From assembly GCA_006384855.1 (NCBI GenBank), contig VCJN01000865.1, forward strand, positions 62,001 through 126,000: a stretch of DNA of 64,000 bases. Reading direction: 5' to 3'. Origin of the DNA: Tetraselmis striata. Its lineage: Eukaryota; Chlorophyta; Chlorodendrophyceae; Chlorodendrales; Chlorodendraceae. The first letter of the stretch is position 1; every line of letters begins with the position of its first letter. The notes below the pieces were generated by a model that ran no database searches, was not told the DNA's origin, and saw only the letters and a program-made list of their open reading frames with translations. Below are positions 1 to 49,234 of the stretch, one piece after another. The position numbers were made by a program, and so were the translations under genes.

Positions 1-208
1 GTTATGGTACGTTTGATGTAACTTTTCTAGTACTTTATGCTTTGTCGGTGTGGACATGAATGGTCAACAGTCAATTGAGCCTGTTGCCCATCTGAGCGCA
101 ATCCTAAATGTACCCAGGTGCAGTACCACTGTGGCAGCCTGTTAGAGCAGCAAGAGCAGCTACGAGTCACAGCAGTTCAGCGCTCTCATCAGCATATTAG
201 TATCAACA
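1..208 (-). repeat. 3' LTR, partial
   Basis: Matches 6958-7165 base for base except four substitutions. On the minus strand it begins TGTTGATACT, the normal TG start of an LTR. The rest of the roughly 445-bp LTR lies left of the window. The stop codon of the RT/RNase H frame falls inside its first six bases. Confidence 0.95.
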
Positions 209-1783
209 CCCCTCCTCGATGAACTGCATGACCTTTGATGCAAACTTGGCGAAGAGAGGGTTGCGTAGAGGCTTGGTGAACATGTCGGCGGCCATCTCCT
301 TGGTTTCCACGTAGTGGATATTGATGTCGCCATTCTTGCATGCCTCGCGCACGAAGTGGTAGCGGATGTCCATGTGCTTGGTACGACTGGATGTCACGTC
401 ATTGGTGGCGATAGCGATGCATGCTTGATTGTCCTCTCCGATAGGGGTAGGGCCGTCAAGTGCGAGTCCCAGCCCCTGCAGCATCTGCCTGATGAACATC
501 ACCTCCTGAGTGGCGATTGCCATGGCGACGTATTCCGCCTCCGCAGTGGATAGGGTGACGATAGACTGCAACAGCGACTTGTAGCTCACTGCTCCTCCGC
601 AGATGGTGAAGTAGAATCCGCAGGTGGCCTTGCCTTGGCTGGTCATCGTGGCGTGGTTTGAGTCAGACCATCCAGCTAGCTGCAGCACGTCGCTCCCGCC
701 GAAGGTGATGCCTCGATCAGGGTACTTCTTGAGGTAGCGCAAAACATGTTTTGCATCTTCCATGTGTGCGCGAGTTGGGGCTGACATAGCTCTGCAAAGG
801 CGGTTGACGGCCTCAGTGATGTCAGGCCTGGTGGCAGTGGAGGCGTACAGCAGTCCGCCGATGAGACTCCTGAAAATGCTTGGATCGTCTAGCGCAGGTG
901 AGCCGCGAGCATCGTTGCCGACGCTGGGAATATCAGCAGGGTTGCAGTCTGTCATGTTGAAACGCTCCAGCAGGTCGGTCACATGCTTCCCTTGATGTAC
1001 CTTGATGGTGCCCGCGTCTCGGTCGCGCTCCACCTTCATGCCTAGAATCCAGGTGCAGGCTCCCAGGTCCTTGATGTCGAACTCGTCAGCGAGGTTGCGC
1101 TTGAACTGAACCACCCAGGTGGTGCAGTTGCTGCAGATCAGGATGTCGTCCACGTAGATCGCCACAATGCTGAAGGTGTTGCCGGATCGGTAGATGTAGG
1201 CGCCGGGGTCGGTCTTGAGCTGAGCAAATCCCTGCCCCAGCATGTGCTCGCGCAGCTTGAGGTACCAATCGTGCGGCGCCTGCTTGAGGCCATAGACGCT
1301 CTTCTTCATGTGGTAGACCAGCTCCTCGCCGTTGGGTCCTTGCTGTTCAAACTCAGGGGCTTGTGTCATGTAGATATCCTCCTCCAGGTCTCCGTAGAGG
1401 AACGCACAGTCGATGTCGGTCTGCTCGAGCTCCATGCCGTAATGGGCTGCCAGGGAAAATATGATGCGTAGCGTGGTGAACTTCACGGTAGGTGCGAAGG
1501 TGTCGTTGTAGTCGATGCCATGCACTTGGCTGAAGCCCTTGGCCACCAGTCGCGCCTTGTAGCGTGCTAGGCTGCCGTCGGCGTTGCGCTTGGTCTTGAA
1601 TACCCACTTGCACCTGACTGCCTTCCTGCCGGATGGTAGGGTCACCATTACCCACGTCTTCCTGGCTATGAGGGATCGGTATTCTACCCACATCGCCTCC
1701 AGCAAGTGTGGTGCATCTGGACCGGTCAGAGCTTTCCGTGTGCGTCTGCGGATCGCCGGGTGCCTCGCCTGCCAGATGGGCAT
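203..1783 (-). CDS. copia reverse transcriptase and RNase H portion of the polyprotein
   Basis: A 526-residue open frame. The N-terminal half is Ty1/copia reverse transcriptase: a KARLVAKGFSQ block near residue 80, an FAPT..TTLR block near residue 95, and the catalytic YVDDILI motif near residue 215. The C-terminal 150 residues are RNase H of the copia type, with acidic residues in SDSNHA, TAEAEY and EDNQA, followed by a KHMDIRYHFVRE block and the usual ADMFTKPL ending. It makes and processes the cDNA in the virus-like particle. It begins without its own natural start because a frame change near 1790 separates it from the integrase frame. The stop lies in the 3' LTR. Confidence 0.93.
   Translation of the reverse strand: MPIWQARHPAIRRRTRKALTGPDAPHLLEAMWVEYRSLIARKTWVMVTLPSGRKAVRCKWVFKTKRNADGSLARYKARLVAKGFSQVHGIDYNDTFAPTVKFTTLRIIFSLAAHYGMELEQTDIDCAFLYGDLEEDIYMTQAPEFEQQGPNGEELVYHMKKSVYGLKQAPHDWYLKLREHMLGQGFAQLKTDPGAYIYRSGNTFSIVAIYVDDILICSNCTTWVVQFKRNLADEFDIKDLGACTWILGMKVERDRDAGTIKVHQGKHVTDLLERFNMTDCNPADIPSVGNDARGSPALDDPSIFRSLIGGLLYASTATRPDITEAVNRLCRAMSAPTRAHMEDAKHVLRYLKKYPDRGITFGGSDVLQLAGWSDSNHATMTSQGKATCGFYFTICGGAVSYKSLLQSIVTLSTAEAEYVAMAIATQEVMFIRQMLQGLGLALDGPTPIGEDNQACIAIATNDVTSSRTKHMDIRYHFVREACKNGDINIHYVETKEMAADMFTKPLRNPLFAKFASKVMQFIEEGC
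209..218 (-). other. polypurine tract of the copia element
   Basis: The minus strand reads CGAGGAGGGG immediately before the LTR's TGTTGA. This purine run is the expected primer for plus-strand DNA synthesis. It overlaps the end of the RNase H coding frame. Confidence 0.85.
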
Positions 1784-4241
1784 GATCTCGATTGCTCCAT
1801 GCCAGGTGGCGGGCGCTGACGGGGTTGCGGTAGTCGATGCGCGGGCGGCTTGATCGGGACAAGCCGGCAGGCTGTGGCGGTCCGCTGGACGTCGGGGCGG
1901 TTGGCACTGTAGGGCGTGCTGGACCAGGGACGGCAGGAGTAGGAGGCTGGGGAGTCACTGCTGGTGGCTGCGGGGCACCGGCTCCGGCTGGTTCGGGCGT
2001 CTCATCTCGCTTAGGCTGGGCGTTTGGGAAGAAATCTTCGTCGCTGTCGCTGGCATCACTGTCACTGTCGGGACGGCGCAGTGGACGGGATGCCCCTCCT
2101 GAGGTCGATGCCCCTCCTGAGGTAGATGCCCCTCCTGAAGTTGATGCATGCCCTTCCTGCCACATCATCCCCTCCTGTGTGGCATGCCGCCACACATCAG
2201 TGGCAGGTGAAGGGGTAGCCGGCAGGACCCAATGCTCGTTGAACGTGACGTTGCGCGTTGCCACGGTGGTGTTGGTATCAGGAAAATAGACGAGGCAGCA
2301 GTCGTCCGCATGCAAAGCGTCGTAGCCCACGAAGATGCCGAGTCGAGCAGAGGGGTCCGACTTGATGCGTTGAGCGCGCTGTTGATGAACGTACGATGGA
2401 CAGCCGAACACGCGCAAATGGGAGAGATCAGGGGCGGCTGCGGCGACGATGGACATGGGTGCAGCGCCGGTGCTCCTGGGGGTGCGGTTGTGCAGGTAGG
2501 CAGCGGTAGCCATGGCAAACTGCCAGTACGGGGTAGGAAGGCCAGCATAGGCCAGCATGCAACGGCCCCAGGTCCACAAGGTGCGCCAGGTACGCTCCAC
2601 TAGCCCATTCTGAAACTGGCTGTAGGGAGCAGAATACTCACGTCGCAGTGCATGAGCGTCACACTCAGCGATGAAGGCGCGACTGTGGAACACGCTGTCG
2701 TTGTCGAGACGTAGGGCACGGACGGTGTGCCCCATGCTGCGGGCGATCGCCAGGACGCGGCGCAGGCAGTCGACAGCGGCGGCGCGGGAGCGGACAAATA
2801 GAATGCAGCACCAGCTGCTGGCGTAGTCAACAGCTCCAAACACGTATGTAGGAGTTGCCTTGCAGCGATCTGTGGGGTTCTCCCATAAGTCGCAGCCCAG
2901 CATGTGGCATGGTGCATCTGGTCGAGGATGACAGGTGCGCGGTCGCGGGGCTGCAGTAGCCTTGATCATGGCGCAGGCGTGGCAGAACGGTAGACGCGTT
3001 TGCGTGGAGTACTCAACCTGCGTGCCTGCGGTGCCGCGCAGAGCGTCCATGGCGCGCTCATGGATGTGACCGAGCCTGGCATGCCACAGATACTTGGAGT
3101 CTTGCTTCACTGCAGAGACGAGGGAGATGCCCGCTGGGGGTCCAGACCGCTCAATGCGGCTGTGCAGCACGTACAGGCGGTCGACGCTCTCCACCGGGAA
3201 GACGGTATCGCCCACTTCGAGGCGGCTGCCGCGGGAGTTGATGATGATCTGGAGATGGGCATTCTGCTCCTCAGCTTGCCGGCTACTGAAGAGACGATAG
3301 ATCTGGTTGTCAGAGCGGAACGCGAGATCTGGCACGTGTAACACATTGCGAAGAACGACGGTCTGAGCAGTGCCGTTGTCGTCGGGAATGGTGGTTCGCA
3401 CAGTGCCGATGCCGACGGCTCGTGCACACAGTCCGTGAATCCAGCGCGGGGAAATGGGCTTGTAGTCCGCGAAGTCAGAGATGTTGGCCACCATGTGAGA
3501 GGTGGCGCCGGTGTCAAGCACCCACGACTGCGGGAACGACTTGATGCTGGGTAGCGCAACTTCTGACACACTGGCCTTAACGATGGCAAGTGCCAGCCAC
3601 TTGCCGATGTTGGCATCGATGCAGGCGCCCGGCATCATGCGGCGCTGATCAAGCGAGAGACCAGGGATGTCCAATGTGTCAGCCGGGAAGCCCATGCTCA
3701 AAGCCACGATGTCCAAACAGGGGGTTTCAGGCTCGCCGTCGAGTAGAAGCATGCTTTTGCCGGGCACGGCAGGTGCGTCTGTCGTGGCGGTGGTCATGCG
3801 GTAGGCGTAACTGCCCCGGCGGGAGACGAACTTCGAGAAGAGGCCATGCTGCAGATGAGAAGGAGCGGTCCACCGTGGAGAGAAGCCATGTGTGGTAAGG
3901 AGCTCCCCAACAGACAGCGGTGCCCGCTGGGCCTGCTGATAGTGAGTGCGAAAGAAATCGATGTCACGGATGTTGCTCCATACCACTGTATCGCGTCTGG
4001 CTGTTGACCCAAGCTCGTGCGCTCGGACCAGAATTGGCGTGCCCATAGCCTCAACGATCTCATGGCAGCGCGCAGCACCGGGGACGTTCTCGAGAATGAA
4101 GTTGACGCCACCAGACTGCATCGACGCCAGACGCTTGCTTGACGACATCAATAGAACCGTACAGCCCACCAGCACGCGGGTCGGCGAGCATGAGGCGATG
4201 AGGGTTGGCGGCTGAGAACGGGGCGCAGGGCGGTGAGGCAA
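1784..4241 (-). CDS. copia polyprotein middle: methyltransferase C-terminal half, protease, integrase
   Basis: One uninterrupted frame starting upstream of 4100. Residues about 45-222 match the C-terminal half of a C5-cytosine methyltransferase (LENV at 50-53, ARRD at 81-84, MGFP at 183-186, a motif X-like GACIDANIGKW). Only about 18 residues later comes the retroviral-type protease motif LDTGATSH (242-249, bases about 3495-3518). Then follow the GAG-pre-integrase zinc region (LWHARLGH, later CHAC) and the integrase core with D of GCDLW, D of RLDNDSVF and E of NGLVERTW. A run of three 21-bp repeats at about 2094-2150 encodes Gly/Ala/Ser/Thr-rich linker. Past about 1790 the frame stays open to 1353 but no longer encodes homologous protein. 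Confidence 0.9.
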
Positions 4242-4505
4242 TCACTAGGTCGACATGCCCAAGGGACGCCAGTTCGTCGTCAGTGATGGACTGGACATCA
4301 GGGTTGATGCGGCCGTAGGAGTCGTGGATGGCGCTGGCAGGGATCTGATGAGGATGGCGGGCTTGCATGCGCTCCTGCTCCACCCGGCCGGCCTTGCGCA
4401 CGTGCTTGTCAGTCTCGCAGCAGATCATGTCGCCAATGGAACACCAGCTTCGGCCAGACCCTCCGCGATGGAGTGAAGGGCGCCAACACACAGTGACAAA
4501 ATCCG
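3575..4505 (-). other. composite DNMT3-like C5-cytosine DNA methyltransferase domain inside the retrotransposon
   Basis: Family knowledge: C5 methyltransferases transfer a methyl group from S-adenosylmethionine to cytosine through a Cys in motif IV. Seen here in order: motif I-like RILSLCVGALHSIAEGLAE at the end of the Gag frame, motif IV SPPCAPFS, motif VI ILENV, motif VIII-like TARRDTVVWSN, then MGFP and RRMMPG with motif X. The spacing and the DLVIASPPC and NPHR stretches are closest to the DNMT3 pattern. Motif I is unusual: the canonical F-x-G-x-G is replaced by C-V-G-A-L. The domain is in frame with Gag at its N-terminus and with protease at its C-terminus, so it belongs to the element and is not a nested insertion. 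Two frame changes break it in this copy. Confidence 0.82.
4060..4491 (-). pseudogene. methyltransferase middle segment with catalytic Pro-Cys, in a third frame
   Basis: A 143-residue frame overlapping the ends of the Gag and protease/integrase frames. It contains GDMICCETDKH (like the motif II acidic segment), DVQSITDDELASLGHVDLV and ASPPCAPFSAANPHR; the Pro-Cys at 4225-4233 is the motif IV nucleophile pair of C5-cytosine methyltransferases. Homology runs on from motif I in the upstream frame and into motif VI in the downstream frame, so it is the central third of one domain. The breaks near 4440 and 4110-4140 are not at long homopolymers. They may be mutations, assembly indels or, less likely, programmed frameshifts. 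Confidence 0.8.
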
Positions 4506-6584
4506 AATCGGCTTGCCCTTGGTAAAAGCAGCAGGGTCGGCCTTGACATCAGTAACAGACGGAAGAGGCTGGAACGGCGTCGGCGAGCGGGCAAGGGCGG
4601 CGTGAGGCAATGGCGGTGTGGAGGCGATGTCCGGCAGCGTCTGGGCGGCAAACGCAACAGTATATCCACATGGATGGAAGAAGGGAACGGTCTTGGTAGG
4701 AGTGAGGTAGGCCGGGTAGCACACACCCGGGCGATGAGACGCAGTGAGGCGCCAGTGGAACGCGCGCTCCAGAGCGTCATGCTCGCACTCGCTGTCACTG
4801 TCGCCATTGCCGTCATCACCATGGACATCCACATCGCTGGCGGTATCGCAGAGGTTGTCGACAGCAGTCATCATGATCAGTTGATCAATGGCATCCGGTG
4901 TAGACGGAGGGACGGCGTCCGGGTAGTCAGCGGCATCATGTGTGGGAGGTCGCTCCTGTGGCGGGCTCCAGTCACACGGTGTGCAGCTGCCGCCAGACGA
5001 GCTGTCAGTCACCGCGCCTGGCATGCTGTTGTCGCTCGAGGCATCGTAATCACCTTCGCTGATGCGTAGGAAGGCGCATGCAGCCTGGCGCGCCGCATGG
5101 TTGCGGCGGCGCACAGCATGGTTGCGGCGGCGGCGCAGATGGCGGTTGCGGCGATGAGGTGACTTGGGCTCGGCGTCAGGATCCTCAGCGGACGCCTCCA
5201 GCGCGTCAGGCTCCGCGGCAGGCTCGCCTGACTCCTCGGGCTCCTTAGACTCATGACACGCCGCAGCAGACTCCACTGGCTCCGCGGGCGCCTTAGACTC
5301 ATCAGTCTCCTGCTCAGCACCCATGGCAGGCTCCGCAAGTGGCATGATGGATGTAACCACCACATCAGCCTCGGGGAGCATGGGACGCTTGCCATCCGCA
5401 ATATCCGCCCGGAGCTTGTAGCACTCCTCGCGCAGGTGAGAGCGGCTCCAACAGAAGGTGCAATGGGTGATCACGTTGAAGTCGGTGGTGACGGGCGCCA
5501 GACGTTCTGCTGATGTGGGGCAGCTGGGCAGGTTGAGGTGAGAGGTCGCCACAAAAGCAAATTCCTTGGCCACGTGGGCATGCTCCTTGTCGCCAGCGGC
5601 GTCAGGGCGGCCGCGGCCGTCTCCTGCAGGTGGGTTGCGATCAGGGTGAACACGGCCCGCGGCCTTGTCCCGGGCGTAGCTTCGGCAGTCACGCTTCGGG
5701 TGGCCAGGGATGCCACAGTAATAGCAGCGGCGCTTGTTGACGCCGGGACGGTCTGACGGCTGCGTAGACGAGTGGCCAGCGCCGCCGGACGCCAAGGAAG
5801 ACAGCATGGCGGCGAGCTTGGACATGGTTGCATCTTCAGCGCCGGGCTGAGGAGGAGAGAGCTCCTCTTTGAGTCTTGCGACCAGGGCAGTGAGATCAGC
5901 CTCACTCAATTTGCCATCCTTCACGGCGCTCGGCTGCGACGGGGGCGGCGCGGCCAGGAATGCTGCAGCAGTTGACTCGGCGGCAGGCGCACGGGAGGTG
6001 AGACGGACAGCCTTCGCTGCCTCAAGGAAGGTGTCAGGCCTGCTGCGAAGGAGGTGGTCGTACTCAGACTTGAAGTCAGGTTGACGCAGACCATCACGGA
6101 AGTGGTTGATCAGCTTGGCGTCAGTGACAATCGTGCCGGCTCTGTCAAGCATCAGGCGGGCAAGCATCAGGCGGGCGATGAACGATTCGAGGTCCTCGTG
6201 AGGAGATTGCTTGGTAGACAGGGAGCCCTCAAGGGTGGAGATGTAGGTCTCAGGTGGCGGAGCAAAAGCGGCCTTGAGGGCTTGCAGGGCGTGGTAGCCC
6301 TTACGGGTGTTGTAACGGTAGCTGACGTCCAGGAGGTGAGTCGCCGCGGTCCTGCCAGGAAGCAGGTTGAGCAGCAGGCGGAAGACTTGGGCGTGGCAGT
6401 CCTCAGAGGTTGTGGTGTCATCAGCGACAAAGATATTAGAATACCCCTCCTCGCTGGTGAGACGACTCTCAAGCTGAAACTGCCAAAGCAGCCATGAGGC
6501 AGCATCAAAATCACCAGGACGAGCAAAGGACTCATAGTCCTTGGTCTTCAAGCGCGCATGGGACATGGTAGCAAGGATTCCCAC
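4425..6584 (-). CDS. copia Gag with two CCHC zinc knuckles, running into methyltransferase motif I
   Basis: 719 residues. The N-terminal 200 residues match copia Gag (UBN2-type capsid). Two CX2CX4HX4C knuckles follow: CYYCGIPGHPKRDC near residue 290 (bases about 5690-5732) and CTFCWSRSHLREEC near residue 375 (about 5418-5460). An acidic Glu/Pro/Ala region and then an arginine-rich block (RRNRHLRRRRNHAVRRRNH) around 5100-5150 precede the C-terminus, which becomes methyltransferase motif I. A 15-bp direct duplication at about 6148-6178 repeats ARLML. The first Met is 123 bases downstream of the primer-binding site; a second Met six residues on (MSHARL) is an equally good start. Confidence 0.88.
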   Translation of the reverse strand: MGILATMSHARLKTKDYESFARPGDFDAASWLLWQFQLESRLTSEEGYSNIFVADDTTTSEDCHAQVFRLLLNLLPGRTAATHLLDVSYRYNTRKGYHALQALKAAFAPPPETYISTLEGSLSTKQSPHEDLESFIARLMLARLMLDRAGTIVTDAKLINHFRDGLRQPDFKSEYDHLLRSRPDTFLEAAKAVRLTSRAPAAESTAAAFLAAPPPSQPSAVKDGKLSEADLTALVARLKEELSPPQPGAEDATMSKLAAMLSSLASGGAGHSSTQPSDRPGVNKRRCYYCGIPGHPKRDCRSYARDKAAGRVHPDRNPPAGDGRGRPDAAGDKEHAHVAKEFAFVATSHLNLPSCPTSAERLAPVTTDFNVITHCTFCWSRSHLREECYKLRADIADGKRPMLPEADVVVTSIMPLAEPAMGAEQETDESKAPAEPVESAAACHESKEPEESGEPAAEPDALEASAEDPDAEPKSPHRRNRHLRRRRNHAVRRRNHAARQAACAFLRISEGDYDASSDNSMPGAVTDSSSGGSCTPCDWSPPQERPPTHDAADYPDAVPPSTPDAIDQLIMMTAVDNLCDTASDVDVHGDDGNGDSDSECEHDALERAFHWRLTASHRPGVCYPAYLTPTKTVPFFHPCGYTVAFAAQTLPDIASTPPLPHAALARSPTPFQPLPSVTDVKADPAAFTKGKPIRILSLCVGALHSIAEGLAEAGVPLAT

Positions 6585-6707
6585 GAGGGGTGACGGAGGA
6601 CGCCAGAGGACGACGAGGATGAGACGAGCGGAGAAACCCAGAGGTTGAGAAACCTAGGTGGAAGCGAAGACGAAAACAACGATGAGTGGCGCAGGGACAT
6701 GCGCGAT

Positions 6708-6720
6708 CAGGCCCATAACC
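6708..6720 (-). other. primer-binding site, complementary to the anticodon region of initiator tRNA-Met
   Basis: The plus strand reads GGCCCATAACC (6710-6720), identical to the anticodon loop region of plant-type initiator tRNA-Met; the minus strand GGTTATGGGCC abuts the 5' LTR. Priming by an internal half-tRNA is known in the copia group, including algal Osser. Confidence 0.8.
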
Positions 6721-7165
6721 TGTTAATGTTGACACAAGGCGGCTGCAGCTGACAGACAAGCAGCAGCAGGTGAGTGTGAGTGCACAGGACGGCAACACGA
6801 CCTTGCAGGTCGAGTGAGGAGCTAGTGGGAAGAACGAAGTTAATTTACAAAGGCTAGGTTTCTCCAACTTGGCTGGTGGGCATGTTTGCAACATGCCTAG
6901 CCGGTCTGTGGCATCCTGGCCACTGAAATGGCCTCTAGTAGTTACCGTTGTACCTTGGTTATGGTACGTTTGATGTAACTTTTCTAGTACTTTATGCTTT
7001 GTTGGTGTGGACATGAATGGTCAACAGTCACTTGAGCCTGTTGCCCATCTGAGCGCAATCCTAAATGTACCCAGGTGCAGTACCACTGTGGCAACCTGTT
7101 AGAGCAGCAAGAGCAGCTACGAGTCACCGCAGTTCAGCGCTCTCATCAGCATATTAGTATCAACA
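6721..7165 (-). repeat. 5' LTR, complete
   Basis: 445 bp. On the minus strand it runs from TGTTGATACT to CATTAACA, giving TG...CA ends and a short imperfect inverted repeat. Boundaries are fixed by the primer-binding site on one side and by the end of identity with the left LTR on the other. It should hold the element's promoter and RNA start, which I did not locate. Confidence 0.93.
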
Positions 7166-8374
7166 GCAGCTGGGCGACTTCCTGGTTCCCTTGGTTCTTC
7201 CTTGGTTCTTGGCTCCCTGGCCTCCTGCTTGACTCTTGGTTTCAGGTTTATGTGTCTCTTTCGCTTGCAAGCTTTCACAGTTGCTTTTAGTTGTGTTTGT
7301 AGTGCGCACATGTTAAAAGCAATGATGCGTGTTTTTTATGTCTACTCGTGGTGCACACGAACGGGTGCAGCGACGGGTCAACTGGTAACCCGTACCACTT
7401 AGTTGCACATGTAGCAAGAAAAACGGTTATACCAGGAAAGGAGTAAACCCCATAATATACTAGCTTAGGTCATAATGAATCTCATGTGATAGCGATGAGC
7501 TACGTAGATATATATACTAATCGCCCTACCGTTATGTGCTGCGTTATTTGTTCTCGTTTGGGATAGACTGAGGGAAGTACTACAGCTTCTGCAGTTCTGC
7601 ACCAGAGAGTAGTATATACAGGTATCGGTACAGGGTATCCGATCATCACTGACCAGCATGCGGGCCGCCAAGCCAGCAGCATGTCCATCCCTTCAGTAAC
7701 ACCGCCTGCATAGACCATCTGTTGGATATCCCCCTGTGCATCAAGGAGCATGTGGTTAGACTGCTTGGTGTTAAGAAACTCTCCCTTGTTTCCGCAGGGC
7801 ATCGAGAGCTGAATGGTATCACCGGGAGCAAACGTACGCCCGTTGATTGGTGGAAGGTTATGCCGGCATTTCATGTGGCGCTTTCTGCGCGCGGCTTGGC
7901 TGCGTACACGAAAGAGTCAGAAAGTCCGCTCATGTTTTTAATTCAAGACCACAATTTTTTTTCGGCGTCCTTTTCGAGCGGAGACCCCGCCCTCGTATGG
8001 ATTTGTAGGCATCCTTTACAGCGCCCGCACCGGGTACCAAATATTAACAGGCACCGACAGACACAGCATGCGGGCTGGCGGGGTGGAAGAAAGCTGCGAA
8101 CGCTGCTGCGAACGCGAACGCTGCTGCCGCGAAGACGATTATTGCACCAGCCAATTTACGATGGCGCGAACAATAAGTCGCCACTGCCGGGAATATATGT
8201 ATGTGGCGCCAAATGTGTTGTCCGCTACAACTTGACTCATAAGCAAGTACCAATATATTCCCCTTCCGATGTCACAATCTTTCCGCAGTTGACAGCTCAA
8301 TACACCCTCACACAGTTCCTCGCTGGTCTGTGTTCTCGACTCCCCAGACTTGCGCTATCGTGTTCTCCGACTGA
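7166..8374. other. intergenic stretch between the retrotransposon and the HSP20 gene
   Basis: No gene recognised. 7190-7215 has imperfect CTTGGTTCTT repeats. 8090-8140 has a GCTGCGAACG-type simple repeat. 8250-8260 has an ATATAT stretch that could serve as a TATA-like element for the downstream gene. No convincing heat-shock element array was found by eye. Confidence 0.4.
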
Positions 8375-8749
8375 ATGGCTTCCTCCACTACTCCGCCCGT
8401 CTTCAACTTGGACGTAATCCCTCGCGTGGCGGCGCCCGAATTCAATATCGAGGAGACGAGCACCTCTGACGAGATCTCGGGCAACCTGAAGAACGAGAAG
8501 GAGGAGAATCTGAAGCTCGGTCTGACGGAGGACCGCGTGCTCACCATCGTGGGAGAGCAGAGCATCGCCGTCGAGAAGAAGGATGGGACAAAAGAAGAGA
8601 AGGTTCTGTACCAGCGAGCTGTGCCTCTGCCGCCCCACGCAGACGAGCACGGCATTTCTGAGGAGTTGACACATTTCATGCAGCTGAAGGTCGTAATGCC
8701 GAAGCGGCAAATGCAATCTGCTCCCAGCCGGGCGGTTGGTGCATACTGA
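8375..8749 (+). CDS. small heat-shock protein (HSP20 / alpha-crystallin) family
   Basis: A single-exon frame of 124 residues. From about residue 15 it follows the alpha-crystallin fold: PEFNIEET, then LKLGLTEDRVLTIVGEQ (beta strands with the VLTI-GE signature), a charged loop EKKDGTKEEK, and LYQRAVPLPPHADEHGIS ahead of a final KVVMPK strand. Family proteins are ATP-independent holdases that form oligomers and keep unfolding proteins soluble. The usual C-terminal A-x-x-x-n-G-V-L signature is changed to HFMQL, and no I-x-I tail motif is visible, so oligomerisation may differ. No organelle targeting peptide is obvious, which suggests the cytosol. A TGTAA signal follows about 130 bases after the stop. 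Confidence 0.72.
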   Translation: MASSTTPPVFNLDVIPRVAAPEFNIEETSTSDEISGNLKNEKEENLKLGLTEDRVLTIVGEQSIAVEKKDGTKEEKVLYQRAVPLPPHADEHGISEELTHFMQLKVVMPKRQMQSAPSRAVGAY

Positions 8750-8875
8750 GCTTATTATATCAAACTTGGGGATATAACAAAGTTACGATTAAACACCGCG
8801 ACTGATCGCAGCTGAGCATGTCTAAATTAAAAACACGTAGAGGTGCTTCTTCTGATAAGCTGTGAGTTACCGACC

Positions 8876-8880
8876 TGTAA
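8876..8880 (+). terminator. TGTAA polyadenylation-type signal for the HSP20 gene
   Basis: TGTAA is the usual polyadenylation signal of chlorophyte algae. It lies 127 bases past the stop codon. Confidence 0.5.
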
Positions 8881-9336
8881 CTTTCACACAATTCTTTCCT
8901 ACAAGTCAGGGTACCAACATTCCAACAGCGGCAACGAGCATGCATTCTTGTCATACATCTGGTAACAACAGTGAAATGCCAATGTGTTCGATTATGTGGA
9001 TGATATCCCAGTCTGCGCTCTTGCTGCAAGTGCTAAATCTTTTGAGAGCCTATAGTTATGATCCCATCATGCATCCATTATAGTTTCACAGCAGATACGT
9101 GATATGACGCAGTAAAAGTCCGCGCCGCTAGCGTTGGATTTGCCCCGCGTCATTGGTCAACGTCCTGTGGTCTGAGTGCTGTATGGGTTGAGGCAGCTAG
9201 CGCGACACGGAAACAATACCGGTAGCCGAGGAGTGAGGGGCTCGCAATAATAACAAGGGAGAGCACTCGTGAGGAAAAGTCGAGATTTGATATGTGGCAT
9301 ATGGAGCAGGAGCCAGCACCGGTACAGGCATCTGTA

Positions 9337-9341
9337 TTACA
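9337..9341 (-). terminator. TGTAA polyadenylation-type signal for the PAF-acetylhydrolase gene
   Basis: The minus strand reads TGTAA 133 bases after the stop at 9474, a normal distance in green algae. Confidence 0.5.
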
Positions 9342-9473
9342 CATCTGACATTGAGCCATTGCAGTTGAGCACTTGCAAAGGCAATAATTTCGTTGCGAAT
9401 CCACAGAGTACCCATCATGTCATGGCTATGAAATTGCACTCACAGCACTGCTTGCCACCGTTCCAAAGTTAAA

Positions 9474-12251
9474 TCAAGCTACAGCCCCTGCTACAACTCT
9501 AATCTCTGCTATTTCAGGGGGTAATTCGCAATCGCTGCCAGCAAGCCATTGGAACTCAAGTGGTTGTTCATCACACGCCACTCCTGGAATATGACGAGAT
9601 AGAAATGCGTGACCAAGGCGACGATTCAGATCATGCAAGAGGGCTGGCTGTGGGCCTTTCGCCATGCCCACCGCGGCGAGCAGCCGAGACAGCAGCAGTG
9701 GGAAGTCACTCTGCGACATGTGGCCTGCAGCGGCAAGCGTCACCATGGCAGAGCGCGGAAAGGCTTCCATCTTCTCGATATTTGACTTCCATTGGAACTT
9801 CTACAAGGGGAGGGGACGAAGTGTCTGATGAGTCAGGCATGTGCTTTGGCAGGCTGCTGCCCTCCTGCGGAAAGCTATCTCTCCCTGATTAAGTGTCCAG
9901 GGCCTCATGACTCACCTCATTGTTGACAAAGAGAATCGGGGGGCACGCGCCGTTGCGGGCTGCGTCAAGCTCCGCAGTTGAGAAGGCATACAGCCAGGCG
10001 TCCAGCGCAATCACAGCAGCATACTGCCCTGGCGACGCCTGGTCAACAATGGAGAATAAGCGCAGTATAGTTATTGTCCAACCCAACAAGCAGCTCAACT
10101 CTCTTAAGTATTATGTGATTGGCGCAGGTGTAGAACTATATGTTATGTAGGTACGCATTATAATATCATTTATATACATTGAATACATACATATATACAT
10201 ATATACATACATACATATATATAGAGATATAAATATATATGTACAGATATGCATTTATAACATATATGTAAAACATATATGTAGGTATATGCATGTGCGT
10301 ATGAGTATGTGTGTGCAGCCATCAATCAAACACCCACAGATAGTGCCATCTTGCAGGTGATTGGTCACGCAAACACGCTGCGCATGCGGATGACAGCCTT
10401 ACCCGCAGCGTTGTTGCCAGAGCGGTGGCGGCCCCGAAGGAGTGGCCCATCAGTGCCGTGCGCTTGAGATCAAGGCGTCCTGCAAAGGTGGTTGCATGAG
10501 CAAACCGCGTGCCACCTGCGCCAAGCCAGGAACGTGCATGTCACTGCCATTTGCAACATTTTTCGCCCTAGCACTGAATCACGACACTGTACACCTTCAT
10601 CAAAGGCTTGAAATAAACCGGGGTGTTATCATGCAAATGGGTAAGAAAGACCTGGGTGGGCACCTATGGCGCCATGATGCACCGGTAGCTGCCCGATGTA
10701 ATAGGGTTTGCATGTCCAAAGAAATCAATTATTATTTTGCAACATTGAGTTGGAATTTTCTCGCAGATTTCGATATGTCTTTTGATAGATATAAATACTT
10801 GCCTTATCACGAAAGATACAAACAATAGTAATTAGCTGACTCACAGCGGCAGTATGTCTGGAAACAAGGACTCACCCTTCGTGCTGTTCAGTGGGGAGCA
10901 ACACTTGACGCTCTTGCCTGCAGCTAGCGCACTAAGCACATTTCGCGCTGCCTCCACCTCCGCCACACGCTGCGCAAGTTGAGCGCGGCGGAAGGCCATG
11001 CTGCCATCTGCAGCCTCGCTCTCCTTGGTAATGGGTGTATGTGGCACCTCATCGCCGCGGTCGAAGGTTACACACGCGCTGCCGTCGCGATGCTCCACCG
11101 CCGCGACAACAAATCCCCGGCTCGCGTAGTCGGTGCACAGGCTGGAGTAGGTGGTGCGCATGCCAGCTAGCCCATGGCTGAAGATCATGACGGGGAATAG
11201 TGCGGCAGCCTCGCGTGTGGTGGCAGCGCCCCCGTCTGCTAGCGGGTTGCTAGCAGCTGCATAGCCAGCCAGCGGACGGTTAACAGCACACGGCTTGCGC
11301 GCCCAGCCTGCGCTCAGCATAATCAAGGGCACAGACAGAACGGAGGGAAGCTTCGCGTAGTCGCCATAGCCCTTGGCGTAGCGCCATGATGGCAGCCATG
11401 CTGCCTCTGTTGGTAGTGATGACCCGCTAGGATCGCAGGGGTAGTAAAGGCGGATGATGGTGCCATTTTCCACCTCTGGCTCTAGATCTGCAATCGCCAC
11501 CTGCACATGCGAAATCCCGGTGATCAGAAGTGATCTTCAGGTCAACATCGCCCGTCCCAACAAGCAAGGCACTCGGGGTCTCATGTTGCAACACGAGCGA
11601 CGTGTAGTCCAGCGCATGTTGAAAACCTTTCCATTGACAGGACCATACCTTATGCGGACCGCTGGGCTTCAAGAACTTCGTGCCAGGCACGAAATCAAGT
11701 TCCTTCGAAGCATGTGCCGGCTTCCCCGGCGACCCAGCAGTCGCAACGCTGCTATCACTGCGGGTTTGAGAGCTGTCTTGCTGCACGGGTGCAGACGCCT
11801 CAGCTCGCATCTTCGCCGCCGTCGACAACGATTGTTGACGATGTGATCGCCGCCGATACCTGCAGTCAGAACCTCCGACGCCCTGCGGTGCTCCGTGGTG
11901 GGGTATTGCAAATCGCGTGCTTTCTACTTGCAGGGGTGATAGTCCAAACGGCGAGGGTGCCGCCGCCACTGCGCTGGCTGCCGTTGCTGCGATGGCACCG
12001 GACGTAATCCCACTAGAACGCCGATAATTCCAAACACTTGCGGAGATCGGGGCTGCTCCACGGATGATTCTTGCACAAGATTGCAGGGTGGTATTATTAT
12101 GGGTTGGCAATCGCGAGCGTTCTGCCCCCGGAAGAGTGCCACTGACGACGAAAGCTGGCACTGCTGCTGCGCACACAGGAAGCTGCTGCCGCCCGCCTTG
12201 GATCGCCGTCAGCATATGGCGGATAGAGTCGCAAACCGGCAGGCTTATCAC
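9474..12251 (-). CDS. platelet-activating factor acetylhydrolase family phospholipase (5 exons)
   Basis: Group VII/VIII phospholipase A2 fold; members hydrolyse short or oxidised acyl chains from phospholipids. Exons read on the minus strand: upstream of 11649 (5' end uncertain), 11500-10876, 10479-10403, 10038-9916, 9800-9474. Every junction has GT-AG ends and consistent phase. Visible blocks: IRLYYPCDPSG, VMIFSHGLAGMRTTYSSLC and FVVAAVEHRDGSA in exon 2; nucleophile elbow MGHSFGAATAL in exon 3; VIALDAWLYAF and ILFVNNE in exon 4; and AAAGHMSQSDFPLLL with the likely catalytic His in exon 5. The frame is open from 12251, but a Met at 11810 is also plausible, and further 5' exons are possible. 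The intron at 10039-10402 carries an AT-rich microsatellite. Confidence 0.88.
10165..10320. repeat. AT-rich TA/TACATA microsatellite in a PAF-acetylhydrolase intron
   Basis: A run of TACATA, ATATAT and TGTATG-type units grading into a TGTGTG stretch, inside the intron between exons 3 and 4. Confidence 0.85.
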
Positions 12252-13162
12252 AGAACCCCTGCAGAGCAGCAGATTGCATGGTAAGCAGCTGCGTCGCTTG
12301 CACTAGAGCCTCAGGAGGAAATGGAAGGCTCGCGCCCAGAGGCGGGTGAGATGACAAAGAAGTGAAATGGATGAATTGCTGCTGGGTCAGACCAGTGGAC
12401 TGTCACTGTCGCGACACGGCGCTCGAGCCGCAAGCAGCTATAGCACCTAGTATGACGTGTTGGTCTGTCAATCTTTGTTGCAGCTCGAACAGCGCGCGTT
12501 GCGGTCGAGTGCGTAAGAGCGTGTACCCTTAGTTTTGCTAGAGGGCGTGGCAGTATCGCGGTGGGTTGATTTTTCGTCGGCATCAATTCGAGCGGTGGAC
12601 AACGACTGCCGCAAAGCCTGAGCAGCAAACAGGAAGGTCATCCTGATGTATCGCGTCATCATCAGCAGCAGCATATCATGCGCAGTGGCGCTGCAGGGGC
12701 CGCCGCCGCCTATATTATATGGGTTCCAGTACCGTACCAGTACCAGTACCAGTATCATCAAGTGTATTATATTGCTTTTTTTGCTTTTTTTTTAAAGTAG
12801 TAGTAGGTGGATTTGCTAGTGATCATTTTGTATTTCACACCAGCATGTATTAGGGATTAGCGACAATTGCTGGCGATATCTGTACTGTGAGAAAGCTGCT
12901 GGCGGCGCGCGAGCTGCGGCCGACCTGTCCGGCCCTCGCATATTGTTCGCCATTGTCACGGGGACCATATACGAGTACGTGAGATACCCGTGCTTGTTTA
13001 CTACCCAGTGCAGGTCGCGTCGTACGGGTTGACATATATATGTACATGTGTATGTGGGTACCAGGTACCCTGTATGCATTTATGTGTATGTCTATGGACC
13101 CATACATTATGTAGCGGATACGCTACCTATCGACCATATACCGGTAGTTACTGCTTCCACCC

Positions 13163-13250
13163 CGCAGTCGCTGTAGAGGACCTTTCTGATTGCCCTTTTA
13201 TTTTAGTGATTTCCGATATCGCCTTCTGCTGCTAGCTCATGTAAATAATA
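13163..13250 (-). repeat. dispersed repeat family (CATGAGCTAGC-type), inverted copy
   Basis: The reverse complement matches 21058-21150 over about 90 bases. Shorter relatives occur at 21548-21610 and 57563-57622. The core is ACATGAGCTAGC followed by an AAAGGCGAT...GGAAATCACC...AAAAGGCAAT pattern. No coding capacity seen. Confidence 0.7.
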
Positions 13251-13479
13251 TACCGGTTGAACCTGTACCGCGGCGCCGCCGAATCGCTATCCTGCATTAT
13301 GAGCTGCTTGCTTGCTGCTTGCTGCTGTACCGGTAACTACTGCACTTGATGCCCGCATTATTTATTTATTGATGCTGGGCTGCTGCCAGTATGCGTAATG
13401 TTTCCGGCTTCTTATCACTATTTTATCGTTTCCATGCTGGGTGAACTACACACAAAACAGCACCAGTTGCTGTGGATGC

Positions 13480-13757
13480 TTTTTAGCAACAGTGGTGCAA
13501 CCCTTGCAGCGTCTCTAAGATGGCCGTTTAAGCAGCGATCCAATAACAGAAAGTCCCGGGTAGGTGACGTTCCGTGATAGTCATCAAGCAGATTGCCGAA
13601 ACATTCCACAAGACGAATTGACGGAATTTCCGACACTGATGGATCACCGTCTACAACACTACCATCAAAATACCCGGCACTGACCACGAAAGGTCTGCCC
13701 TATCCGTCTGGGCGTCGGCCCATTCGGGTAATGCGAGTTGGGGCATACCCCATCCTG
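13480..13757 (-). mobile_element. diverged 5'-truncated LINE fragment
   Basis: Same orientation as, and clearly alignable to, 34130-34390 at the 3' end of the full LINE (shared blocks such as CCTTGCAGCGTCTCTA, TACCCGGCACTGACCACG and GCGTCGGCCCATTCG). Its A-tail side is eroded. Confidence 0.75.
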
Positions 13758-14372
13758 CGCAGACTGTTCCCGTATACATGCGATGACGCGGATACCGAAT
13801 TCCCGATTGATTAGCTCATACGCCACTTAGCAACGTCAGATATACTGGTGGGAGGCATAATGGCCAAATGCTGCCAAAATCCATAAATTAATGCAAGCGG
13901 GCCATTTTGCAATCCAGTGCGCGGTGCGTGTTGTGTCTTGTGGACGTTGGCCAAATGGAGCGACAGAAAAAAGGATCTTCAAAACCATCGTCACAAGATT
14001 GGCTTTGCTGGCCTGGATTGGAGGTGTAGCAAGCAGCGTGGCGCCGAGTTTTTGTTGTTTCCACGCCAAGGATTATGCACCTGTACATCCGTACACAATG
14101 TCGGGAGAAAATACCACAACATTTCACCGAGACGCCAATCCTGTAGGTCTATCTAGCTTCAATCTATGACATGCCGTAGAAGTGAATATGGAAAGAGATG
14201 GGCAGAGGGGGGGGGGGGGGGGGGGGGGGCATTCAGCCCCTACTGATTTCAATTGCAATTTTTGTGTACATGTAGTCGCTGTTGTGTGGAGAGCGCCTGG
14301 GTGTGATTAGATGGCGATGCCGCAGTGTGTGGCTGCACATGCTGGGTGCGCTGGACTGTGGTCAATCTCCAC

Positions 14373-39714: not shown

Positions 39715-41405
39715 GCGCCAGTCGCTGCCGTTCCGCATGCCCTGGGCGCTGCCCGCCGCTTCCCGTCCACGGCAACCCCCACCTGGCGCCGGCCCGCACC
39801 TGGCGGCCGAGCGTGCCGCCTTCTCAGGCCTGCTGCTGGCGCTCCTGCGGCCTGACCGCCCGCTGGCCGCGGGCGCGGCATGGCTGCGCGACTGGCGGCC
39901 GCCGCCGCCGCGTGTGGCCCTGTTCGAGGTCCTGCTCCAGCGGGAGGTGCCGGCCCTCGCAGGCTTACGCGGCGTCGGCAGCGCCGACGAGTCGGACGAC
40001 GGTCGCGCCCCCCACGGCGCGCCCATCTACCTGGCCACGCTGCCTTTCCGGCTGCAGGTCAACCTGCTGCTGCTGTTGCTGGAGCAGGCGCGCTACTTCC
40101 CGCGCTCGGCGCTCGTCGGGTTTGCGCGCAACGCACTCGCCGCAGTGCTGCCCTCCAGCTGGACCGCGGCGCTGCTGGCGGACCTGCTGCGGGAGCTGGG
40201 GGTGCGGCCGAGCCCGCCCGCGTATCTGGCACCCGCTCCCCAGCCACAGGGGCGCCAACCTCTCCATTGCGACCAGCAGATTTTTCCGGCTATATATACA
40301 TGTGAATACTACAAATGCCGACGCACCAATGAATACCCCTATTATAAACCTCAAACCTATGTTAACTGATAGTATGAGATTGCTGGGGGTGCCTGGCGGC
40401 ACTTTCTTAGATTCGCACCATGTTTGCTGCACATTCGTTTGGTTATAGGATGGCAAAGGGCGGGTGCTTTCTTCGAAATGCTGTTTAATATGTGCGTCAC
40501 CATTCGTACATTGTGATCACCACACTGATGCATAACAGCTATCACAGCCCCCCCCCCCCCCCCCCCTCCCCTTGTGAAAGTGGCCAATGACACCACAGGT
40601 ATACTGCCTGCTGAGTATACTGTGGTATGGGTGGCGGCCGGCAGGAGGCTGTTCCACCAGCGCAGCAAAGCGGCGGCAGCACACAGCCCGCCGAAGCGCC
40701 GTCGCCGGCCCTGAGCTTGCGGCAGGAGCACGACAACCTGTCGCAGCCGCACCCGCCCGCAGAGGCACCAGCGGCGGGGGGCGAGGGGCAGCTCGCGGGC
40801 GCGGGGGCAGTGCCGGCCGCCAAACGGCAGCGCTCTGCGGGTGGCGAAGAGCGTGGCGGCATGGGGCCGCACGCTGAGCTGCTGGCCAGCGTTCAGCGGG
40901 GGCTGCGGCAGCTGGAGGTGTGCCTGCAGGGGGCTCCTCATTTCGCCAATCCTCGGAGCATGCACACACCAACGCGCGTTCCATGTTGGCGCAGCATGAC
41001 ACTGAGCACGCAATGCCAATCCGGCGGACTTGACAATCTCTCCCCCCCCCCCCCCCCTCTCTCTCTATGTATTTATATGTGTATATGTACATATATATTA
41101 TACATATATTACATAAAATACGGATGGCGACTCACCTATAAGAATCCTTATGATAAGTCTCTCATTAGGCTTGCATGCAGTCTATAAGAAAATCCGATGT
41201 ACTTTCGGCAACATTTGACCTCGGGCAGGCAGGGCAGGTTCTCATTCAACGCGTCTGTATTACAGTATCGGCACTCGTACATGCCTCCCTAGGGTTATAG
41301 CCACGTATCCATTTGGGACCGAATAATGTCCTGTATCCACCCCTGGGCCCCAATGACGGGCGGGTTACACCATACCACACCACACAATACCATGCATTTC
41401 ACTGC

Positions 41406-41445
<40 letters not shown>

Positions 41446-43013
41446 ACTGTATATATGTATATACACGTACATATACACATTCTAACATACAGGCATGGGG
41501 TGAGAAAGATTATCTGGCTTATTTAATGAGGCCCCTCCTCACTCTCTCCCTCTCTCTCTGGCACATAGAAAATGTTAGCGCTGCAAAACATCCCGGCATC
41601 CGGTAAGCAGGCATGGGGCAACAGGCATGCGTCAGCTGCCACCAAGTGCCGCCCTGCCTGACCCGGACGCTGTCCACCGCGCAGCAGCAGCGGGACGGCG
41701 GCGCGGAGGGCGTCGCGCTACCGTCGGATCTACGGGAGCAGCTGGACGGCGTGATGGCGGCGGTGGCGGCAGGGGAGCCGGGCCTGGTGGCGAGGCTGGG
41801 CGCTGCGGAGGCGTCTGACGACGTCTTCTACCAGCTGTGCCAACACGTGCGTGCCGATCCTTTTTCCCCGCCACCGCCACCATCTCCCCCACCACACAAT
41901 ACCCACTCGCGTGATGGCTTTCATGGTAACCGCTGCGCATTTCTGCTATGATCCTGCCAATACCGGTCCCGGGGCGGTAATAGGAACGCTGTGAAGACGA
42001 TCCTGCACCGCTTGCGAGAGGTGAAATGTGAAACAAAACTATACCGTAATTGCGGCGAATGTCCGTACAGGCTGCTAGCAAAGCCAACTTGAGGCGTGTA
42101 AGCAGGGCTCGTGTAGCTGCGTCGGCACCTGCAGCAAGAATAAGGATGTCCATTGGCGCCCTGCCTTTCGAATCACCATATGCAGACCCCTGTCTCACAT
42201 GTGGGTTTTATCACGATGTTCCGCGCTGCCCGGAGGTCCAACTCCGGTCGTAAATCTGGCATAGCCATGAGACCATTGCCTCATTCGAACCCCGAAGGGC
42301 CAATGCATCAATAAAGTAAGCCCGGGACCATCGAACCGGGAACCTGCCGTACCAGAGACCTCCGCTCTACCGAGCAGACAGACAACAAAGCCGGTGCATA
42401 CCCAAATTAGTATCGCGCCGGCACCTACCTCTTTGCATACCAGCATGCGGATGTTTGTGAGAGTAGCGCTCATTGATGTGATAAGTGTAGGTCTGCTTGA
42501 AAGTCCCCTATGCCAACAAACGATTCGCAAATTTAAAACGCTTATCAAAGATCTGCCGCACCCAGATGTAGTGCCGCTCATGTATGGGCAGCATCAAGAC
42601 TGTGTAGAACCACCCCAGCGTCATGCAGATATCAATTATATACCACAGGCACAATACCAGTACATGACAAGGGTGGTTCTTTCCTAAAATTGGGGTTTTA
42701 CTCCTCGAAAATGTGGGCAGGTCCCGTTGTGTTGACGGGCGGACAGAGTTTGATTATGGCCCCAGTCTCCCCGGCAAGGCTGCGCTCCTCTGAGCAGCTG
42801 GCGGGCACCACGCCCATGCAGGTGCTCCGCCGCGACGGGAGCACCATTGGTGCGGCCGCGTGGGTGGCGGGCGCCATCGCTCCCAGGCTCCAGGCCCTGC
42901 AGGCCGCGGCGTCCGCGCCGCTGTTGGACGCCCTCTTGGACGCCGGTGCGCGATAGACACTCCTGCGATGATGACCCCCCCCCCCCCCCCACTGGCGACT
43001 TATGACTTTCTCC

Positions 43014-43054
<41 letters not shown>

Positions 43055-45549: not shown

Positions 45550-46879
45550 CCTGCTGGGTGCCTCGTGCCTCTGTGCATGCACTGCACTCAAGGGAAGCGC
45601 GCACCGCACCGCACCTGCTTGGATTGGCGGTGGCCGGGCGCAATGAGCTGTACACGCAGTCCTCCGCACGAGTCTTTGCGTGCACGTGGGGTTCCGCACG
45701 CTGATCGATGACGAACTTTCGAACATTCGAAATGCAACTCATTGAAATATAGCGCAATGGTGGCCTAAGGGTGTGCGGGAGATTGAAGGAGGAGGGGTGC
45801 TTCATTTGCCACTATACCTGCCGTACACTCGCCCTAATGTGACTCGCCTGATAAAATGCAGTATTGGTTTAGGTCACAGTTTCACCGAGAATTGGATGGG
45901 GGTCTTTATTTACGTCAAATACTCGATGTAGTGCTTAACGCTCTGTACATGCCATTGGCCACTATATGGTGCCGATTGTTTCTGTCGGAATCCCTACCCA
46001 CGAAGTTGTCACGGGAAACCAATCAGCGGTGCACCTCTTGCCTCTCAATTAGCGCGCGTCAGGAAGTTCCACCTGCGTCATCGCCGTTGGACGGGAGCAT
46101 CAGCCCCTCAGAAAGCGCTGGAGAGGTGGAATCGGTGCACTCAATCGCATCGGTAAGTCTCAATTTCAATGCTGCGCAACCTGCTCCACGGCGCCCTTAC
46201 GTAAATATGCAAGGCACTCCCACATTCATTGATTGGCGCATGCGTGTGAGCGCGAGCGCATTCACAACGGATAAGGAGACTGCGAGCTGGGAGCGAAGGA
46301 ATAGATGAGAAGCGCATTGGTATCCCAATTGCAAAATTCAAATGGACATACTTACATCGGGGAGCCAACAGCCGCAACATTGGGGATACCTACTGATGGC
46401 AATAACTCGGCAGGGCGTATATGTGTGGCGATAATATCCACTGTGCTAGGTTCTAATTGTCGCGACCGGCTTTTATAATGTCTTATGAGCCTCTCACTCA
46501 ACTACGCCCAGCTCCTCCAGCAGCGCCACATGCTCCTCGCGCAGATATTATTGCCCTCTGTGGCCGCCCGTTGCGTGCCGACCCAATCCCACACCCAGCT
46601 CGCAAGGTTTTCCGCATATCGCATGGGCACCCGGCACTTGCCCTGCTCATGTCGATGGTATGCCACCACCGGCGCGTACTTGTCATGTCAGGCTGCCTCA
46701 TGCATGCTGGGCCTGCAAGTATTGCAGTTATTAAGAGTGCCCAGAAGGACCCGCGTTGGACCTTGTATACAGAGCTGCTATTTGCCACAGTAGCGGTGCG
46801 GTATATACGTCGATGCGCTATCAGAGCCGGACCTTGTTTACATAGTTGCTACTTGCCACAGTAGCGGTGCGGTATATAC
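45550..46879. other. 3' flank of FANCE-like gene, copy 1
   Basis: No firm gene. A splice-donor-bounded stretch ending near 46152 (GTAAGT) reads RKFHLRHRRWTGASAPQKAL in one frame and is kept in copy 2, where small differences alter the surrounding frame. A roughly 70-base internal duplication lies at 46785-46905 (GCCACAGTAGCGGTGCGG twice), differing from copy 2. Confidence 0.35.
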
Positions 46880-47230
46880 GTCGATGCGCTATCAGAGCCG
46901 GAGCGAGGCGAGGGCTGGCGCTTCCTGGCTATCCGTCTGTTGGGGGTAATAGTACAGCTTGCGCACCCGGCGGGTGTGATGACGGGTGATCCGTTTGTGA
47001 ACAAGTTCGTCCTGTTTGTGGCGTGGCTGCGATTCCAGGGGGCTTAAAGCCACTGCCGCAACGTCGGGCTACAGGTCCTGCAGAGCCTGCGCCACAAAGC
47101 TGACCGGGTGAACTCCCGCCTGGATGTGTCAGACAGCTTGCTCTTCAGTCGGCCAGAATTCCGGGTGGCGTTTGAGTGCTGGGGAGAAATCGGACGGTGG
47201 ACCGGATCCCCAGCACGTTGGGAGTGGTGA
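46880..47230 (+). pseudogene. unrecognised pseudogene fragment, copy 1
   Basis: A 117-codon stretch reads as a well-composed protein (ERGEGWRFLAIRLLGVIVQL, DPFVNKFVLFVAWLRFQ, HKADRVNSRLDVSDSLLFSR, PEFRVAFECWGEIGRW) with one in-frame TAA at 47045. Copy 2 (53115-53465) has the same stop, so the lesion predates the duplication unless an intron covers it. Family not recognised. Confidence 0.5.
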
Positions 47231-47497
47231 TCACGGTGAGAGCCACAGCGGTTCTGCGGACGCGATAATAATTGGCGCTACGTGTCACGAGTATTTTGGA
47301 CCATTTGGCCCAATATATCAGGTGAACTTGTGCGAATATTGCATCTACGACCATTGCTGTGGTCGTCCTCCTGCATGAAGGCGGCATTTGCCCACCGCTA
47401 TGCCAGGGCTCGAGGCGGCGAGTATAGCCACATGGTTGGAGTTGGGCTGAAACTGTGTGTGTGTGTGTGTGTGTGTGTGGGTGCGTGCGTGCTTGTG

Positions 47498-47514
47498 AAA
47501 CCCTAAACCCTAAA
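47498..47514. repeat. interstitial telomeric repeat at the duplication junction
   Basis: AAACCCTAAACCCTAAA, about 2.4 units of the plant-type telomere repeat (CCCTAAA). It lies exactly between the last base of copy 1 (GCTTGTG) and the first of copy 2 (ATCCACCCC). Neither the left edge of copy 1 nor the right edge of copy 2 has it, so it was added when the duplication formed. Confidence 0.9.
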
Positions 47515-47584
47515 TCCACCCCTGGGCCCCAATGACGGGCGGGTTACACCATACCACACCACACAATACCATGCATTTCACTGC

Positions 47585-47624
<40 letters not shown>

Positions 47625-49193: not shown

Positions 49194-49234
<41 letters not shown>

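Follow-up and report, generated by a model that had tools for sequence, protein, structure and literature searches.

Retrotransposons with captured cytosine methyltransferases have been found in few lineages, and the use to which they put the enzyme is unexplained. DNMT-bearing long interspersed nuclear elements (LINE), DIRS elements and Gypsy elements have been described (de Mendoza 2018, PMC5890265). KnitGypsy-Dnmt3 of the charophyte Klebsormidium nitens, a green-lineage alga, carries an unrearranged, intronless Dnmt3-type domain within its polyprotein and is present in several copies; a yeast methylation test of this domain was inconclusive. SymbioDIRS-Dnmt3 and SymbioLINE-Dnmt are found in the dinoflagellate Symbiodinium. 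Two SymbioDIRS domains carried out de novo CG methylation in yeast, and it was proposed that cDNA is methylated upon reverse transcription. Saccharomyces cerevisiae has no cytosine methylation of its own (PMC5890265). In the same paper, the Copia superfamily of Symbiodinium is described as being without any DNMT domain. The analysis presented here concerns a 64,000-nucleotide stretch of the chlorophyte Tetraselmis striata (assembly GCA_006384855.1, contig VCJN01000865.1, positions 62,001 to 126,000; the window), the minus strand of which contains a Ty1/copia element with long terminal repeats (LTRs). In the family of this element, Gag and protease are separated by a cytosine-C5 methyltransferase (MTase) domain. 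The domain occupies this fixed place in several diverged families of the genome and in sequences from ENA, and it is unbroken in recently inserted copies. The reading favored here, with moderate confidence, is that Tetraselmis harbors a Ty1/copia lineage with a single polyprotein in which a DNMT3-like MTase, located between Gag and protease, would methylate the cDNA or the new insertion of the element. The anatomy itself is nearly certain.

Like the DNMT-bearing retrotransposons of PMC5890265, the Tetraselmis element encodes the MTase in its own frame and is present in many copies. The transposon class is different. KnitGypsy-Dnmt3 has a Gypsy domain composition, DIRS-like repeats and a charophyte host, whereas the Tetraselmis element has the copia order (integrase before reverse transcriptase, the latter of the RVT_2 type), ordinary LTRs, a chlorophyte host, and an MTase upstream of the protease and beside Gag. 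The Symbiodinium elements also place a DNMT on a retrotransposon, but these are DIRS and LINE rather than LTR/copia elements. One clause in a later paper refers to DNMT3 embedded in LTR Copia and DIRS elements of streptophytes and dinoflagellates (Mol Biol Evol 2025, PMC12344493). This clause cites the 2018 paper, which says Gypsy, and its context contains neither a chlorophyte element nor the anatomy described here; Tetraselmis is mentioned 0 times in the accessible text. Retrotransposons with an adenine or cytosine methylase (DAM/DCM) include green algae among their hosts (PMC6338049), but belong to Gypsy and DIRS clades, and the word Copia occurs 0 times in the accessible text of that paper. 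The ParB-methyltransferase accessory proteins in the accessible part of an Ectocarpus paper (PMC12477816) likewise give an algal transposon its own DNA methyltransferase domain, but as a separate gene of a DNA transposon and with a predicted N4-cytosine or N6-adenine specificity. Among the best-ranked literature matches, from a coverage that mostly excludes subscription papers and bioRxiv, none described a DNMT-bearing copia element from a chlorophyte, and there was no precedent for an MTase placed between Gag and protease or for its spread over several families of one genome. A DNMT inside a retrotransposon is known; on this coverage, a multi-family DNMT-bearing Copia lineage in a chlorophyte appears to be new.

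The MTase stretch of the window has 33 DNA matches in the T. striata genome (224 Mb in 2903 contigs). Thirty-one of them, counting the window copy, span at least 891 of the 901 bases and so are close to full length. One is partial, and the 33rd is a 72%-identical piece (L041) in which a related MTase survives in broken form. Two complete LTRs (TG...CA) are present in 27 of the 32 alignable copies (L009–L040). The 5-bp target duplication is exact in 24 of these 27 and matches at four of five bases in one more; the other two are adjacent copies on one contig that, as we read them, have no target duplication of their own. The two LTRs are identical in eight of the 27. A single frame of 2113–2147 codons runs through to RNase H in nine of the 32 copies, in the order Gag-MTase-protease-integrase-reverse transcriptase; the frame of L012, which is among these nine, starts a few codons inside Gag. 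Relative to L027, which served as reference for indels, stops and differences, codons 30–2147 are free of indels and stops in eight copies. By region, the MTase is unbroken in 22 of the 32, Gag in 21, and protease-integrase (PR-INT) and reverse transcriptase-RNase H (RT-RH) in 19 each. Assignment to copia is based on the order protease, integrase, reverse transcriptase and RNase H in one frame with an RVT_2-type reverse transcriptase. The Pfam order in the intact frame is Pol_BBD, gag_pre-integrs (26.2 bits, cut-off 28.4), rve, SH3 and RVT_2. Given the intact copies, the target duplications and the identical LTRs, the MTase domain is part of the element, whose transposition is recent.

Taken alone, the window copy could suggest that a DNMT gene landed by chance in one element, as a nested insert or a one-off capture, since its domain is spread across three frames. 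Such an event is next to impossible when set against the 32 alignable copies in which all or part of the domain sits at this position, nine of them with one frame, and against the same placement in an ENA relative and in three further families of this genome. In addition, the LTRs are the only repeats of at least 60 bases in window 1–14000. Chance, frame-shift noise and a nested insert are ruled out by the intact copies and the related families. The original prediction, made from the window, had likewise treated the domain as part of the element rather than a nested insert, and had proposed a search for other copies with an unbroken frame and the same order. The nine copies answer that proposal, and with 33 matches in the genome this is not a single-copy event.

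In the window copy (L009), the terminal repeat copies are 6957 bases apart and are flanked by the 5-bp target duplication GCTGC. All of its features are on the minus strand. The 5' LTR (6721..7165; 445 bp, TGTTGATA...TTAACA) is 98% identical to window 1–208, which holds the first 208 of the 445 bases of the 3' LTR (1..208); the remainder lies left of the window edge. Next to the LTR, the sequence resembles the complement of an initiator tRNA anticodon arm and is a candidate primer binding site. The first frame (4425..6653; 742 codons) encodes Gag with a CCHC zinc knuckle (5682..5729; PF00098 19.5 bits, just under the cut-off of 20.8), a linker and, at its end, MTase motif I (RILSLCVGALHSIAEG). 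The second (4060..4548; 162 codons) contains motif IV (SPPC, within IASPPCAPFS). The third (1353..4241; 962 codons) contains motifs VI (ENVPG), VIII (RRDTVVW) and IX/X (RRMMPGACIDANIGKWL) upstream of the protease motif DTGATSHM, followed by the GAG-pre-integrase, integrase and SH3-like regions; motifs are numbered as is usual for C5-MTases. PF22936 and PF25597 exceed their cut-offs in the third frame, Pol_BBD and SH3-like are among its matches, and PF13976 (26.8 vs 28.4) and PF00665 (30.0 vs 32.6) fall just under. The MTase domain, from motif I to motif X, spans approximately 3575..4520. The original prediction had given 3575–4505 and had divided the motifs among the frames in the way found here. 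The reverse transcriptase/RNase H frame (203..1954; 583 codons; PF07727 RVT_2 227 bits) ends with a stop codon just inside the 3' LTR.

The predicted placement of a cytosine MTase between Gag and protease of a copia polyprotein is borne out by the intact copies and also holds in other families. In P0006, an ENA protein of 2514 amino acids, PF00145 scores 32.3 bits between a zinc-finger Gag and the protease, and integrase and RVT_2 follow. This is the order of the window family, whose MTase domain is 45% identical to that of P0006. Three ENA fragments, P0007 (with part of the protease), P0008 and P0009, are nearer to P0006 than to the window family; PF00145 scores 33.1 bits on P0008 and 40.0 bits on P0009. 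Within the T. striata genome, L042, L043 and L044 each have the MTase followed by protease and integrase in one frame (PF00145 46.2, 38.3 and 35.8 bits, respectively), and L042 additionally has Gag with a zinc knuckle (PF00098 27.6 bits) before the MTase and a reverse transcriptase after it. L043 (G000:C1014:20900-23400) is the most diverged MTase-copia family examined, with motif IV kept as GPPCQPWS and the protease motif as DSGASSH. Over the full domain, MTase identity between families is 30–53%. In five longer members, MTase identity is similar to PR-INT identity in most pairs and both unrooted trees have the same shape, a pattern that weakly fits a common descent of the putative enzyme and the element. 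A scan of IMG/VR with a two-sequence domain alignment gave 36 pattern stretches and no relative, and a protein search with the ENA relative as query recovered itself alone.

A PF00145 scan of the genome gave 337 candidates, of which 123 were scored, all over the cut-off of 22 bits; the window family is not among these 123. Visual inspection assigned 92 of them to the retroelement kind; most of these match only around positions 35–117 of the model, and many lie in frames of more than 1000 codons. The longest such frame among the matches listed has 3505 codons (match at G000:C2687:20282-20512). With the L044 MTase as query there were at least 122 matches (121 scored of 548 candidates), with identities from 100 down to 32% and groups at approximately 51–54%, 45–46% (the window family) and 34%. 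Merging the two lists within 1.5 kb gives at least 167 MTase places, fragments included. On C1430, a window-family MTase (G000:C1430:150206-151210) is followed approximately 5 kb away on the same strand by a different MTase match (156439-156666); to judge from their positions, these are neighboring or nested elements. The scan also recovered 325-codon frames that match nearly the whole PF00145 model (G000:C1993, C776, C1647, C2337, C355 and C1455) and 341-codon frames that match from model position 40 on (C1230, three times). These near-equal frames are perhaps other mobile or viral DNMTs.

Copia elements without the MTase probably coexist with these families. A scan with RVT_2 scored 150 of 897 candidates, 45 of which have a frame of 1561 codons. 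Among the MTase matches listed, not one lies on the same strand 1–5.5 kb upstream of any of these 45. The 1561-codon copies crowd on contigs C440, C776, C805, C1230, C1303, C1435, C1776 and others.

DNMT3A and DNMT3B were the top matches in both profile and fold comparisons, consistent with the DNMT3-like enzyme originally predicted, with a small profile margin (E 6e-9 for DNMT3A vs 1.1e-8 for DNMT2) and a weak fold model. Identity to the DNMT3A and DNMT3B catalytic domains is approximately 20%, and the spacing from ENV to motif VIII is similar. Unlike DNMT3A and DNMT3B, the Tetraselmis domain is part of Gag-Pol, has T in place of the second motif VIII Arg, and has no PWWP or ADD domain in a Pfam scan of the intact frame. 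Both SPPC of motif IV and ENV of motif VI are kept in all 31 copies that cover them, and the Glu of motif II is kept in 29 of 32. Between families, every row that reaches motifs IV and VI has PPC or PDC, and ENV, and the first Arg of motif VIII is kept in the rows that extend to it. It is likely that the domain is catalytically active on nucleic acid.

Several observations weigh against an active enzyme that serves the element. The original prediction had made a PF00145 score a test of the domain; scores lie above the cut-off for P0006 and the three same-genome families and below it for the window family, with 17.6 bits for the window piece (frame 2) and 18.5 bits for the intact frame. In the families examined, the PF00145 match is confined to the motif IV-VI part. 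The second Arg of the motif VIII RxR, which has a role in DNMT3A, is T in all seven rows that reach it (8 aligned). The AlphaFold2 model, for which P0006 and not the window family supplied the sequence, is weak (mean predicted local distance difference test score 49; residues 181-330 below 50). Over all 15 pairs including P0007, MTase and PR-INT identities correlate with r of only 0.61, and pairs with P0007 have a much lower PR-INT identity (24–43%), which may come from its broken end. Copia transposition in this genome probably does not require the MTase domain, because many copia copies have no listed MTase match upstream. Selection was gauged by the ratio of replacement to silent differences (pN/pS) among differences from L027 found in a single copy, in 2–5 copies or in more than 5 copies. 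In that order, pN/pS was 0.45, 0.24 and 0.22 in the MTase; 0.47, 0.16 and 0.06 in RT-RH; 0.56, 0.20 and 0.00 in PR-INT; 0.42, 0.37 and 0.08 in Gag; and 0.73, 0.63 and 0.32 in the Gag-MTase linker. The contrast between single-copy and shared differences has p 0.003 for RT-RH; the corresponding replacement excess in the MTase (p 0.14) and the contrast between MTase and linker (p 0.12) are not significant.

The domain might instead be a C5-MTase fold with little or no catalytic activity, kept within the Gag-Pol precursor for its structure or for binding nucleic acid, for instance as a linker or an RNA chaperone. Motif I is glycine-rich in canonical C5-MTases; here it is degenerate (LCAGA), and in L043 it is unrecognizable. 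The substituted motif VIII Arg and the restriction of the PF00145 match to motifs IV-VI point in the same direction. However, the Cys of motif IV and ENV have been kept between families that are so diverged over the full domain, and the retention of motifs II, IV and VI among the copies of the window family also argues against a dead fold, which appears unlikely overall.

Copia Gag-Pol enters the particle, where it is cut by the protease. Made with Gag-Pol, the MTase would be packed into the particle, and the protease would release or expose it. The enzyme would then lie beside new cDNA and RNA, either of which it could methylate ahead of integration. Methylation of the cDNA or of the new insertion might allow the new DNA to pass as already-marked host DNA, give it protection, or act as a brake on copy number. 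That the element's own DNA is the main target is a tentative proposal. An alternative is that the enzyme acts in the particle on RNA, either the element transcript or the primer tRNA, and not on DNA. DNMT2, which gives a nearly equal profile match, is a tRNA methyltransferase; the domain adjoins the Gag zinc knuckle, a position that suits RNA; and methylation of RNA is suggested as a possibility for SymbioLINE by de Mendoza et al. (PMC5890265). An RNA target is nevertheless considered improbable, more so than a dead fold.

If the element does methylate its own DNA, a parasite may write the same chemical mark that hosts normally use for silencing it. In the accessible part of a survey of MMETSP transcriptomes, DNMT3 was not identified in any green alga (PMC9998398), so the host may have no DNMT3-like enzyme other than that of the element. 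The chlorophyte copia case offers several families, at least 167 places, recent insertions and, probably, MTase-free copia elements alongside. Tetraselmis is culturable, and the system allows direct questions about whether DNA or RNA is methylated, in which sequence context, and whether the host methylome follows.

The differences among copies contain a footprint that bears on methylation. In the open reading frame (ORF), single-copy differences occur at 138 of 549 CWG (CAG/CTG) cytosines (0.25), compared to 149 of 1695 CHH sites (0.088), 87 of 952 CG sites (0.091) and 15 of 229 CCG sites. CG is not raised here, and the CWG excess is present on both strands and at all codon positions. Differences within LTR pairs, which should have arisen after insertion, are also more frequent at CWG (34 of 1548) than at other non-CG cytosines (25 of 3791; p 4e-6), with CG raised as well (10 of 568 sites). 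The sole control is a tandem of two 6.2-kb direct repeat units at window 41335-53726, which are 95.8% identical and have short or repetitive-looking frames. It has no CWG excess (3.75% vs 3.44%, p 0.69; CG 5.3%). Counts in the LTR pairs and the tandem are unpolarized, and a CWG in one of the two copies is enough for a site to be classed as such, so that CWG is inflated to the same degree in the LTR pairs and in the tandem. CpG depletion was uninformative as a sign of methylation (observed/expected 0.88 in the ORF vs 0.93 in window 7200-64000). The excess differences at CWG suggest that inserted copies may be methylated there.

One source of such a mark would be the Gag-linked enzyme of this chlorophyte copia lineage, which would write CWG methylation in place of the host and leave the mutation footprint; this is rather unlikely, standing between the dead fold and the RNA target in plausibility. 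We lean slightly towards a host CHG-type methyltransferase that silences old copies, or base-calling at modified cytosines, in either case unrelated to the element enzyme. Plant chromomethylases methylate CWG. Among the 27 LTR-paired copies, the other five of the 32 being excluded from the age split, those with at least two LTR differences (n=15) have a rate ratio of CWG to other cytosines of 3.09 (p 2e-19), compared to 1.37 (p 0.36, not significant) in those with 0–1 LTR differences (n=12), and the two classes differ in their share of CWG (p 0.016). The footprint is strong in older copies and weak in young ones. C-to-A changes (47 of 549 CWG vs 35 of 1695 CHH sites) are raised beside C-to-T, so deamination alone does not explain the excess. 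The tandem repeat, which does not contain the element, lacks the excess, yet this fits equally well a host enzyme aimed at elements and decides nothing. A base-calling effect at modified bases and a host CHG enzyme would give identical CWG counts, and the age trend leaves the base-calling question unsettled because older copies may be more methylated.

Outside the element, ARAGORN reported a tRNA with a two-base anticodon at window 39976-40044, which is probably spurious. Predicted proteins of EukProt jgi/Tetstr1, a label that we read as Tetraselmis striata (Chlorodendrophyceae), include P0003 and P0004, which are 97% and 96% identical where aligned, in agreement with the green-algal, here chlorophyte, host that was originally predicted, and P0005, which is 67% identical over half of the query. 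By comparison with P0001, the gene model of P0003 lacks motif I and that of P0005 lacks motif IV. Since the gene models of P0003, P0004 and P0005 are missing parts of the MTase domain, public annotation hides it. The P0004 model is fused to a GidB-type rRNA methyltransferase.

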